The position numbers were made by a program, and so were the translations under genes. Under the pieces are notes generated by a model that saw only the letters and a list, made by a program, of their open reading frames with translations, searched no databases and was not told the DNA's origin. From Prevotellaceae bacterium (GTDB taxonomy: Bacteria > Bacteroidota > Bacteroidia > Bacteroidales > UBA932), in the NCBI GenBank assembly GCA_031290835.1, contig JAISLN010000271.1, positions 1-32,711 on the forward strand: 32,711 nucleotides of DNA. Direction: 5' to 3'. Below, piece by piece: positions 3,582 to 32,299 of this stretch (the stretch's first letter is position 1; every line of letters starts with the position of its first letter).

Positions 3582-3640
3582 TAGGGTGTTCAGACCTGCG
3601 TAATTTTTTCTGCTGATTTATGCCGAAAAAATATGCTTAA
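3582..3640 (+). mobile_element. Remnant left end of the 315-bp non-autonomous element
   Basis: The sequence TAGGGTGTTCAGACC at 3582 is identical to the 15-bp terminal repeat of the insertion sequence at 30396. The next 40 bases (TGCGTAATTTTTTCTGCTGA and on) match the left end of the element at 31976 closely. No matching right end is visible before the SusC operon, so only one end remains. It adjoins the CCC-GTAGGG core of repeat copy 3. The right limit is approximate. Confidence 0.65.
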
Positions 3641-3829
3641 CTTGCAGCAAAACAAGAAAATTCGTAGGCGTTGGTCGTCGCTGCTCTCAAAAATTTGGGG
3701 AAAATTTCTTACCTTATAATTTCTACAATAAATTTATTTATAGCATATTAAGGGCGGTAAGCTTCATTTCTTAAAGCTTTCTTCATAAACATGTCATCCG
3801 TTTGCAATAATGCTGTAATCTTCCAACCC

Positions 3830-29550: not shown

Positions 29551-29844
29551 ATGAAAACAGCGAGTGAATATTGTCTTCTGTTGCGCGACTATAAGCACAA
29601 ACATGCGGCGGAATATGGCATTGAGCGCATGGGGATTTTTGGCTCGGTAGCCCGCGGCAACCAAACCGAGGATAGCGATGTGGACATATACATAGAAGCG
29701 CCCCAAATGAGCCTGCTTGGATTGGCGAATCTTCATATTGCACTGGAGAACTACCTGAAAACGCCCGTAGATATTACCTGCAAGCACGACAACATGAACT
29801 CCTATTTTAAGCAACGGATAGAGGAGGAGCTGATATATGTATGA
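29551..29844 (+). CDS. mntA: MntA-type minimal nucleotidyltransferase antitoxin
   Basis: This 97-residue protein is a minimal nucleotidyltransferase. The catalytic GSVARG motif at 31-36 is followed by SDVDIYIE with D43 and D45, the metal-binding pair. In studied MntA-HepT pairs the MntA protein neutralises the HEPN toxin by adding AMP groups to a tyrosine in the toxin's active motif. The HepT gene starts before this one stops (8-base overlap), so the two are translated together. All key residues are present. Confidence 0.92.
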   Translation: MKTASEYCLLLRDYKHKHAAEYGIERMGIFGSVARGNQTEDSDVDIYIEAPQMSLLGLANLHIALENYLKTPVDITCKHDNMNSYFKQRIEEELIYV

Positions 29845-30226
29845 CAAGCTACTGCTGTTAAATTCATTGCAATATATGGCGACGTCACTGCAAAAAATCA
29901 TTGAGCGGACAGCGGACGTTACTTCCGTTGATGATTTTGTGGGTTCACCTTCCGGAATGGATTTGTTGGATATTGTTTGCATGAGACTTTTTGCCGTTGG
30001 TGAAACCGTGAAAGCGATTGACAAACACACCAATAAATTGTTTTTGTCGCGTTACCCTTCTATTAATTGGCAGGAAATAATGAGAATGCGGGATGTTATT
30101 GCCCATCATTATTTTGAAATTGACGCCAATAGAGTATTCAACACTGTTCGGAATGATATTTTGCTACTATTTCAAGTCATTGAACAAATGCAGGAAGATT
30201 TAAAGAATCATGATTTAAATGTTTGA
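29837..30226 (+). CDS. hepT: HepT-type HEPN toxin (DUF86)
   Basis: This 129-residue protein carries the HEPN RNase motif RX4HXY as R85-DVIA-H90-H-Y92 (MRDVIAHHYF). The surrounding RLFAVGETVKAIDK block (50-63) is typical of DUF86 proteins. HEPN toxins cleave RNA when not neutralised; Y92 is the expected AMPylation target of the partner. It overlaps mntA by 8 bases. Both genes look intact. Repeat copy 6 follows 30 bases downstream. Confidence 0.92.
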   Translation: MYDKLLLLNSLQYMATSLQKIIERTADVTSVDDFVGSPSGMDLLDIVCMRLFAVGETVKAIDKHTNKLFLSRYPSINWQEIMRMRDVIAHHYFEIDANRVFNTVRNDILLLFQVIEQMQEDLKNHDLNV

Positions 30227-30256: not shown

Positions 30257-30395
30257 GGTGCATTTGGCTACGTCAATTTTCAATTCAAAATTGTCGCGAA
30301 CATGGATAATCCCGCAGGGACGACACGCTATTAACCGTAGGGATGCATCTTTTGGTAGAAACGTCGTTACACGGCGTTTTTTGCATCCCTACGGG
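30257..30395 (+). repeat. Dispersed composite repeat, copy 6, cut by the insertion sequence
   Basis: The copy reads GGTGCATTTGGCTACGTCAA, TTTTCAATTCAAAATTGTCG, AATCCCGCAGGGA, then GTAGGGATGCATCTTTTGGTAG and TTGCATCCCTACGGG. The last nine bases (30387-30395) are the left copy of the target duplication. The expected ATGC continuation is found only after the next element, at 32300. Confidence 0.85.
30387..30395 (+). repeat. Target-site duplication CCCTACGGG, left copy
   Basis: The same nine bases follow the right end of the insertion sequence at 31967-31975, in the same orientation. Confidence 0.85.
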
Positions 30396-30426
30396 TAGGG
30401 TGTTCAGACCCATCAAAAACCGCCCG

Positions 30427-31683
30427 CTAAGCAGAGAGCAATTCTCTTCGCTTAACTGTCCTATTTTCAGATAAATGGTCGTCTCTCCAAGTAGCTAAAT
30501 CTTGCAGAGAAACGCGCTCCAAGTACAGCTTAAAGCACCCCTTATCTATCCCCGCTTTTTGCTTCATCCGCGTCCGAAGCGGAAGTAACAAAATTTGCTT
30601 CGTAACGCCGTTCATGGCGTTGGGCGATTGGCGCGCCTTGTAGCTCCCAAACAGCGATTCAATAATGTCCGACGAGATGTGACACCTTGCCTGCTCATCG
30701 GGTAGCTTGCTGCACTCCTTCGCAAGGTACTCCTCGATGAGCTTGCCGACAGCCGCTACTCGCCGCTTGGAGGAGGTTAGCAAGGGGCGTATTTTTGACA
30801 GGCACTCCTTAGCGCTTGACGAGGAAAGCCCTTCATTTTTCAGCTGCTGTAGCACGGGGTTGACCACCTGAAATACCCCGCTTAATTCTTTTATAATCGC
30901 TTGCTTGTCCTTTATAAAGCGGAAAACCTTCCGCTCATCCTTGCTCAAGCGGGAAAATGATTGCAGCAGCGCCATCGCCCATTTTACCGTGCCGGACAGG
31001 TTCATGAACCGGGCAATCGTCCGCTGCTTCGGGGGAAGTAGGTACGCCGGCGGACGCATTACCTCCTTGAACTTTACGCCGCTAATCTCATCCATAAGGG
31101 ATTGAAAAACTTCCGCTTTTTCATAAATCTTCTGCATAAAAAGGCCAAAGGTATGGCCCACATCCCGAAGATGGGTATAGCCCTTGTCGCGAACGGCTTT
31201 ACTTATCGTGCTCGCGTTGTCGCTGATGACGTAGGCGGGAGGGGCCTCCATTTTTTCTTCCACCTGCGCAAATACTTCGCCTATGCTCGCGCTGTTCCAG
31301 CTGGTATTTACGCTCATATTCAATATTTTGACTTCTCCCTCCGTCAAGCTTGTATCGGTGGTTTTCGCCGCCGGAATGCCCACGGTAAGCAGCAACTTTT
31401 CACTCCCAACCATCATGCTCTCGTCAACTATGGCGGCGTAGTCCTCCGTAAAATCGTCGGCGCCCGTATCGTCGTACACGCAGTAGCCGCTCTTTTGCAC
31501 CCAGCTCGCTATGCTGTTGTACGAGGGGAGCTCCTCCGCCTGCCATTGGAAGGCAGTATTTAGCACCTCCAGTATTTTTACGACCATGCGCAAGCTGCAA
31601 CCGCATGTGGCGTAGAGCGATACGCTTAACGAAACAATGAAATCAGTGTACTTATGTCGTTCAATGTACTGCTCGGCAGGCAT
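30427..31683 (-). CDS. DDE-type transposase, catalytic frame (orfB)
   Basis: From its own ATG the frame is 418 residues. A helix-turn-helix-like N-terminus (about 28-66: SLRMVVKILEVLN; SYNSIASWVQ) precedes an RNase H-like core. Candidate catalytic acids are D87 (AIVDESMMVG), D155 (YVISDNASTI) and E342 (DIIESLFGSYK); the last block is typical of several bacterial transposases. A helical insert of about 180 residues separates the second and third acids. The frame stays open upstream of the ATG (AAA CGG AAA ATC GGA ATG) to the A9 run, so a -1 shift from orfA would add about 70 residues and yield one protein of roughly 490 residues. Confidence 0.82.
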   Translation of the reverse strand: MPAEQYIERHKYTDFIVSLSVSLYATCGCSLRMVVKILEVLNTAFQWQAEELPSYNSIASWVQKSGYCVYDDTGADDFTEDYAAIVDESMMVGSEKLLLTVGIPAAKTTDTSLTEGEVKILNMSVNTSWNSASIGEVFAQVEEKMEAPPAYVISDNASTISKAVRDKGYTHLRDVGHTFGLFMQKIYEKAEVFQSLMDEISGVKFKEVMRPPAYLLPPKQRTIARFMNLSGTVKWAMALLQSFSRLSKDERKVFRFIKDKQAIIKELSGVFQVVNPVLQQLKNEGLSSSSAKECLSKIRPLLTSSKRRVAAVGKLIEEYLAKECSKLPDEQARCHISSDIIESLFGSYKARQSPNAMNGVTKQILLLPLRTRMKQKAGIDKGCFKLYLERVSLQDLATWRDDHLSENRTVKRRELLSA

Positions 31684-31886
31684 TCCGATTTTCCGTTTTT
31701 TTTTACGCTCTCCGCCGCTTTTAGCGCTTGCGTCAGGCGCTTCACCTTTACTTTATACCGATCGCGGCTTTGGGACATGTCCCGATTTTTTTGGCGCTCT
31801 ACATGATTTTTTTGGCGCTCTACATGAAAGGCTTGCTTATAGGCTGCCAGCTGCGCACGCAATTTTTCTTCCTGTTTAGTTCTCAT
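31626..31886 (-). CDS. Insertion sequence orfA, small coiled-coil protein
   Basis: From the ATG at 31886 the frame is 86 residues (a TTG at 31919 would add 11). It is strongly charged and helical (KLRAQLAAYKQAFHVERQK, then a repeated HVERQKN, then SRDRYKVKVKRLTQALKAAE), so it is probably a coiled coil. It overlaps orfB by 58 bases. orfB lies in its -1 frame, and the A9 run near codons 63-66 lets a -1 slip fuse the two. The short tail after the shift site (GKSECLPSSTLNDIS and on) is not conserved-looking and is likely an out-of-frame reading of orfB. Confidence 0.72.
   Translation of the reverse strand: MRTKQEEKLRAQLAAYKQAFHVERQKNHVERQKNRDMSQSRDRYKVKVKRLTQALKAAESVKKNGKSECLPSSTLNDISTLISLFR
31696..31704 (-). 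other. A9 slippery run, likely -1 frameshift site
   Basis: In the orfA frame the reverse strand reads GTA AAA AAA AAC GG. A -1 slip on A AAA AAA or A AAA AAC gives AAA CGG AAA ATC GGA ATG, which leads straight into orfB without a stop. Polymerase slippage on the run would have the same effect. Confidence 0.7.
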
Positions 31887-31916
31887 AATATCTTTATAGC
31901 TAAATATGTTAAGCCG

Positions 31917-31924
31917 CAAAGATA
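31917..31924 (-). promoter_or_regulatory. -7 box of the insertion sequence
   Basis: The reverse strand reads TATCTTTG, a TAnnTTTG box, 30 bases before the orfA ATG and about 30 bases inside the right end. Confidence 0.6.
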
Positions 31925-31966
31925 GCCTTTTTTAGAAGAACTTTATCAAGAGGTCTGAACACCCTA

Positions 31967-31975
31967 CCCTACGGG
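31967..31975 (+). repeat. Target-site duplication CCCTACGGG, middle copy
   Basis: These nine bases are shared between the insertion sequence on the left and the 315-bp element on the right. Confidence 0.85.
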
Positions 31976-32290
31976 TAGGGTGTGCAAACCTGCGTAATTT
32001 TTTCCGCTGATTTGTGCCGAAATTAATTGCCTCAACAACCTCATTTTTACCTAATTTCTCAAACAAAACGGCCTCAGTAGCCATGGAATACGCCACCTGC
32101 AACCCAACCTCATTAACCTCATTGGGCTATGCTGCGGGCAAACAATGAGGTAATGAGGTGTTGTTCGCATCATATACTTTTGCTACTGAGGTGGTTTTGT
32201 TTGAGAAATTAGGTAAAAATGAGGTTGTTCGCTGCCTCCTTTTCCAGCTCAATTTTCGGCAGAAAAATTTCGTACCTTCTGAACACCCTA
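31976..32290. mobile_element. 315-bp non-autonomous element (MITE-like)
   Basis: The element begins TAGGGTGTGCAAACC and ends with CTGAACACCCTA, whose reverse complement is TAGGGTGTTCAG, so both ends resemble those of the insertion sequence beside it. It is bounded by CCCTACGGG on both sides (31967 and 32291). It has no coding frame that looks real; most of it is inverted repeat. A related left end is at 3582. It would need a transposase from elsewhere, most simply that of the adjacent element. Confidence 0.75.
32034..32229. repeat. Long inverted repeat inside the 315-bp element
   Basis: The arms 32034-32081 and 32182-32229 are 48 bases each and pair at 46 positions; the two mismatches are a GG/CA pair. 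Between them lies a second, shorter inverted repeat of ACCTCATT-type blocks (near 32108-32125 and 32146-32163). Transcribed, it would fold into a long hairpin. Confidence 0.88.
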
Positions 32291-32299
32291 CCCTACGGG
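32291..32299 (+). repeat. CCCTACGGG, right copy
   Basis: The copy is followed by ATGCAAAG, the continuation of the repeat palindrome GCATCCC-TACGGG-ATGC, so the original target repeat resumes here. Confidence 0.8.

Follow-up and report, generated by a model that had tools for sequence, protein, structure and literature searches.

A probable composite miniature element in a Prevotellaceae genome: Y1 transposon ends nested in a MITE found at REP-like palindromes

The window analysed here is a whole stretch of 32,711 nt from a Prevotellaceae bacterium (contig JAISLN010000271.1). Near its right end an insertion sequence (IS) and a short hairpin element lie side by side among three copies of the 9-bp site CCCTACGGG, in the order site-IS-site-element-site. 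The left site (30387-30395), the centre of a REP-like palindrome, borders the 1571-bp IS (30396-31966), and the middle site (31967-31975) is common to the IS and the 315-bp element (31976-32290). The right site (32291-32299) is followed by ATGCAAAG, the other arm of the interrupted palindrome. CCCTACGGG occurs six times in the window, compared with 0.14 occurrences expected from shuffled sequence. To the left of the IS, two overlapping small genes (29551-29844 and 29837-30226) resemble a nucleotidyltransferase (GSVARG..DSDVD) and a HEPN-type partner (RDVIAHHYF); judged by eye, they are possibly a toxin-antitoxin pair.

The ends of the 315-bp element (TAGGGTGTGCAAACC...TCTGAACACCCTA) and those of the adjacent IS (TAGGGTGTTCAGACC...GGTCTGAACACCCTA) are common over 13-15 bp, and both elements have CCCNNNGGG as their flank; beyond these ends, a repeat search of the window found no repeats linking the two. 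The element contains an inverted repeat of 57 nt (89%; 32034-32090 and 32173-32229), within which a second hairpin, AACCTCATTAACCTCATT / AATGAGGTAATGAGGT, is nested, and its fold stands far from those of shuffled sequences on each strand (z of -12.9 and -15.6). These features agree with an earlier note on this DNA, which had described a hairpin element of this length between 9-bp sites, an inverted repeat with another hairpin inside it, and ends related to those of the IS. Repeat searches and comparison of copies and relatives divide the element into a left outer part (31976-32033, beginning TAGGGTGTGCAAACCTGCGTAATTTTTTC), an inner module (32034-32229) and a right outer part (32230-32290, ending CAGCTCAATTTTCGGCAGAAAAATTTCGTACCTTCTGAACACCCTA). 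By alignment, the left half of the module carries, on the minus strand, blocks of the C type (AAATTAGGTGAAAATGAGGTT; 32037-32057) and the A type (GCTACTGAGGTTGTTTTGTT; 32062-32081); the right half carries, on the plus strand, block B (AATGAGGTAATGAGGTT; 32144-32160), block A (32182-32201) and block C (32206-32226). Three repeats meet here: the inner hairpin belongs to one family, the outer ends to another, and a third, of REP-like character, has CCCTACGGG at its centre.

The main transposase frame of the IS (P0001, 418 aa; 30427-31683, minus strand) is of the DDE type, with invariant D87, D155 and E342. Its predicted fold resembles most nearly the Hermes and ISCth4 transposases, in a model of moderate confidence (pLDDT 58.7). 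The transposase has no match in Pfam, and its NCBIfam matches are all far below cut-off; ISH6 (NF041731) reaches 19.6 bits against a cut-off of 240, which speaks against membership in ISH6. An upstream frame (MRTKQEEKL..., 31626-31886, minus strand) is in a different reading frame from the main one, with the split falling at a run of nine A residues (31696-31704). A 61%-identical IS in a sister genome (L072) has the same frame split and the same A9 run (at about 1481-1489), and the frames are fused in another genome (G010); the split at the nine-A run is likely to represent programmed frameshifting or transcriptional slippage rather than decay. The IS was found once in its own genome.

We then considered the site itself. 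CCCTACGGG is the centre of the palindrome GCATCCCGTAGGGATGC, which has the tail (A/G)TCTCTCGGTAGAA. Allowing up to one mismatch, the own genome contains 57 uninterrupted GCATCCCKWMGGGATGC palindromes, and the reversed control contains none; they are often clustered about 53 bp apart. Two such uninterrupted units lie in the window at 1501-1600 (CATCCC(A/G)TAGGGATG, tail GTCTCTCGGTAG) and fold alone (z of -5.2 and -4.3), and a unit with the same tail (CCGTAGGGATGCATCTTTTGGTAGAAA; 30332-30359, plus strand) adjoins the insertion. In one relative (G011), close variants of the target palindrome stand in inverted pairs around another Y1 gene. Because it is self-folding and such pairs flank a Y1 gene, we regard the target palindrome as REP-like; GCATCCCGTAGGGATGC is also present in high copy and in clusters, as REPs are. 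A Y1 gene of the own genome (on contig C299) was rejected as the partner of this repeat, since no target REP flanks it.

Joining the window flanks (up to 30395, and from 32300 onward) restores TTTGCATCCCTACGGGATGCAAA, with 10-bp arms. Across 33 copies of the element, the consensus flank on both sides is CCCNNNGGG, the REP-like palindrome centre, and almost all copies carry it, which bears out the earlier suggestion that the IS and the element both target one site. A site common to the two is understandable, because the duplicate left by one insertion can receive the following one. Only some copies, the window copy (exact) among them, show a clear 9-bp target duplication: the two flanks of the same copy agree at 6.06 of 9 positions, compared with 5.71 between different copies (P about 0.05), and are identical in 5 of 33. 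Left and right flanks of one copy often differ (e.g., CCCGTAGGG and CCCTACGGG), beyond what the apparent age of the copy suggests; recombination between copies, age, or assembly from a mixed population could produce such mismatches. Correction towards the palindrome, as inverted agreement of the flanks (CCCGTAGGG left, CCCTACGGG right), was rejected, as agreement did not exceed that of shuffles (P 0.51). Over all copies, flank complementarity beyond 9 bp was also no higher than in shuffles; therefore, joined flanks restore a whole palindrome in some copies only.

The own genome (2.69 Mb in 315 contigs, 87% complete) matches the element in about 40 places, many of them at full length, with 84-93% identity. 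Being short (315 bp), non-coding and this numerous, the element has the properties of a MITE. Pairing of left and right ends recovered 34 complete copies, comprising 13 short copies (117-130 bp), which have the same outer ends without the module, and 21 long copies (262-378 bp, most 304-325). Similarity among the long copies is equal in the outer (0.896) and inner (0.913) parts, so these copies multiplied as one unit. The short copies nearest the long ones (L263, 118 bp; L035, 117 bp) are uninterrupted at the module point, and L263 forms an empty/filled pair with the long copy L042: CAACA|ACCTCCTTTTTCAGCTC in the former, and CAACA|ACCTCATTTTCACC..module..GGTTTTCGCT|ACCTCCTTTTTCAGCTC in the latter. 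L042 itself is a short/long chimaera, and the pair could alternatively reflect deletion of the module between ACCTC(A/C)TTTT repeats. In a tree of the outer sequences, in which few branches are well supported, long copies group non-randomly (3 label changes, compared with 10.7 in shuffles). The simplest reading would be a single capture of the module followed by amplification. The greater divergence of the short copies of 124-130 bp suggests that the short form is the older one.

To place the inner module, we searched 149 genomes, the own genome and its relatives. The module (about positions 59-254 of the query) matches in 24 other genomes without the outer ends, and hits to the ends of the 315-bp query are almost absent elsewhere. 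It is present in 9 of 10 genomes of the same genus and also stands free in the own genome (C272), where free modules are few. Its blocks are conserved in the mirror order C-A-B | B-A-C. In one relative (G064), the same halves in the same order are separated by 460 bp, with an intact Y1 gene between them (PF01797, 7.8e-17; 54.1 bits with an IS200-like profile whose cut-off is 55). In another (G004), a Y1 gene is flanked by module halves, one side being intact, and in the own genome the same halves surround a broken Y1 gene (C78:127-636). Y1 genes with PF01797 between module-type ends occur at L055/L088, at L280 and, broken, at C78. Inverted ends of a related kind (AACCTTATT...) accompany related genes from other families of the order. 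Because the same halves enclose Y1 genes elsewhere, we conclude that the module consists of both ends of a Y1 element, minus the gene.

Single module halves (about 85 nt) fold no better than shuffles (z near 0); they show neither the subterminal hairpin at each end that marks IS200/IS605 nor, in the same comparison, the small self-folding palindrome that makes up each REP/REPIN unit. A coding role for the arms was also considered, as the right arm reads FATEVVLFEKLGKNEVV and the reversed left arm MATEAVLFEKLGKNEVV. It was rejected: arm length changes in relatives, and the common reading follows from the palindrome.

The Y1 proteins contain EHVH/DHVH, WQ, and YIENQKEHH or similar, and so carry the signature of subclass 1.2 (DH[IV]H, WQ, Y---Q--HH), a putative placement by motifs only. 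Subclass 1.2 has been described as close to IS200, generally without IS ends or REPs, and as not sharing the properties of IS (PMC6006769). The lack of IS ends is a reported trait of the subclass and not its definition, and at the loci studied here inverted repeats surround the Y1 gene in most of the 22 examined. Inverted ends are now assigned to a Y1 subclass that was reported without them.

At least 118 stretches of a species-genome collection contain block A (20 bases). Among the matches listed, its carriers include Prevotellaceae, Dysgonamonadaceae, Tannerella, Paludibacter, Symbiothrix and Odoribacteraceae, together with twelve Planctomycetaceae bins and one Cloacimonadota. We take the titles of the MAGs with block A to refer mostly to a termite-gut series. 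Many of the planctomycete-labelled contigs hold both halves of the module arrangement, and several encode long Ser/Thr kinases or secretin, so the Planctomycetaceae label fits. In one of these bins (Im510_bin130), the same ends surround an intact Y1 gene whose protein is 78% identical to a Bacteroidales one; the other genes of that contig do not settle the phylum. Transfer of the module across phyla is likely from these sequences, with binning error as the alternative. REP-type repeats are usually treated as vertically inherited, and the present distribution suggests that they can also cross phyla. The MAGs labelled as other phyla (Planctomycetaceae and Cloacimonadota; L118-L235) come from the same kind of habitat. 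In Im510_bin130, an alternating tandem array of modules with a period of about 459 bp, BIME-like in appearance, lies by the intact Y1 gene (L280, 249-2032).

We consider it very probable that the 315-bp element is a composite MITE, in which a Y1-derived mini-element is nested in a DDE MITE and the whole has been amplified as a unit through the IS transposase acting in trans. The outer 58 + 61 bp would be a non-autonomous offshoot of an IS family with a DDE transposase and the ends TAGGGTGTNCARACC; these ends are present on both the IS and the MITE, and likewise in sister species. The enzyme of this family would insert at CCCNNNGGG, the centre of REP-like palindromes. One MITE lineage would have gained the module of ~196 bp, a Y1 (HUH) transposon reduced to its inverted ends by loss of the transposase gene, in the middle of the element, presumably by insertion rather than recombination. 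The composite would then have spread to about 40 sites through its outer ends, with the module now a passenger. The copy number, the common ends, the target motif, the module with and without a gene, and the short copies lacking the module can all be read directly from the sequences, and we infer that the IS transposase is the mover. The earlier proposal of a MITE mobilised in trans gains support from the copy number, from the ends and flank in common with the IS, and from sister species, where the same outer MITE family occurs with other interiors and the same IS type has the same flank. Absence of other copies, which would have counted against that proposal, is clearly contradicted by the copies in the genome. 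The part that did not stand is the large hairpin as the MITE's own structure; it appears instead to be a captured Y1-type element. Points against the composite reading are the slight agreement between the two flanks of a copy, the alternative of module deletion for the empty/filled pair, the few resolved branches and the 3 label changes of the outer-sequence tree, the mere 13-15 bp that MITE and IS have in common, and the fragmented assembly of the genome.

Selection of the hairpin as a transcribed RNA, acting in mRNA stability, in termination or as a small RNA, would account for its very stable fold on both strands, and a role in mRNA is possible for bacterial MITEs and REPs (PMC3733652). The element has no Rfam match at E 1, however, and the covariation term (+0.77) gives no support, pairs being kept mainly as sequence. 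Spacers within the arms are often unpaired in relatives, and the copies are dispersed with unrelated flanks, so that we find this reading improbable. Nor is it at all probable that a Y1/REP-type enzyme moves the unit, with the outer ends as passengers. The module is indeed the more widespread layer and has several gene-bearing relatives, but it is the outer ends and CCCNNNGGG, not module ends, that delimit the copies, free modules are scarce, and the only close Y1 gene of the own genome is broken (in an assembly 87% complete). That the hairpin is simply integral to a MITE of 315 bp, formed from the neighbouring IS by internal deletion and owing nothing to a second transposon, is suggested by adjacency and by the common ends and target. 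We judge this very improbable, given that the module occurs elsewhere without the outer ends and flanks Y1 genes, is absent from the 13 short copies with the same ends, and that nothing beyond the ends links IS and MITE. An assembly or binning artefact behind the tandem IS-MITE arrangement, conceivable with so many contigs and with repeats at many contig ends, is hardly credible when copies lie inside many contigs with different flanks, a second tandem pair occurs at C64 and the family is present in independent genomes.

The composite MITE combines features of several known systems. Like RUP, NEMIS, Nezha and ERIC (PMC3733652), which are 70-300 bp long, it is non-coding, foldable and present in many copies with IS-type terminal repeats; unlike them, it has a foreign mini-element midway and uses REP-like centres as its target. 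IS directed at REPs occur in five known families, IS3, IS110, IS4, IS256 and IS5, and IS1397, ISPsy8, ISPa11 and ISPpu9, like the IS and MITE here, are inserted at a fixed point of a REP palindrome (PMC1525189); the present transposase differs from those families in its lack of a Pfam match and its NCBIfam scores far below cut-off. The module resembles the REPINs and REPtrons of TnpA-REP (RAYT) in its dispersed inverted doublets, in copies flanking a Y1 gene and in a GTAG in its conserved block (PMC3116915, PMC6006769). Unlike a REP, each half is about 85 nt long, does not fold by itself and acts as a long inverted end. In TIRYTs, too, a Y1 gene lies between terminal inverted repeats, but these are mostly GGGG[AT][CG]A[CG] and the proteins mostly of subclass 2.1 (PMC3733652, PMC6006769), whereas the protein here has the subclass 1.2 signature. 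REP dimers also lie within longer palindromes in A. variabilis GTAG-15 and H. neapolitanus CGTC-1, a similar nesting of one palindromic repeat in another; there, the surrounding palindrome was not seen on its own (PMC3733652), whereas here empty copies were found, as were partners of each layer that carry a gene.

What is new is therefore a composite of known kinds, a REP-targeting DDE MITE with a Y1-derived miniature element. A Y1-type repeat appears to multiply inside the MITE of another transposon. How REP-type repeats spread has been described as unresolved (PMC8266576); the steps are testable here, because the MITE can be seen with and without the module, and each layer has visible partners that carry a gene. 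We see evenly balanced chances for a wider proposal from the same comparisons: that a Y1-derived REP-like repeat is spread as a hitch-hiker in a DDE MITE whose own targets are REPs belonging to a second Y1 transposase, and that the Y1 lineage of the module (subclass 1.2) is genuinely mobile, has inverted ends of ~85 bp and has moved between Bacteroidota and Planctomycetota within gut communities.

Other members of the outer MITE family were also seen. A truncated one lies in the window at 3582-3760, directly after CCCGTAGGG; it has a different interior (AATTTATTTATAGCATATTA), found as well in C278, and a similar form occurs in two relatives (G004 and G010). Two degenerate composite copies of 262-263 bp in the own genome (G000:C76:23375-23635 and C277:256-507) have the right flank GACCATCGGGATGCAAAGAGAGG in common, and therefore look related by duplication rather than by separate insertions.
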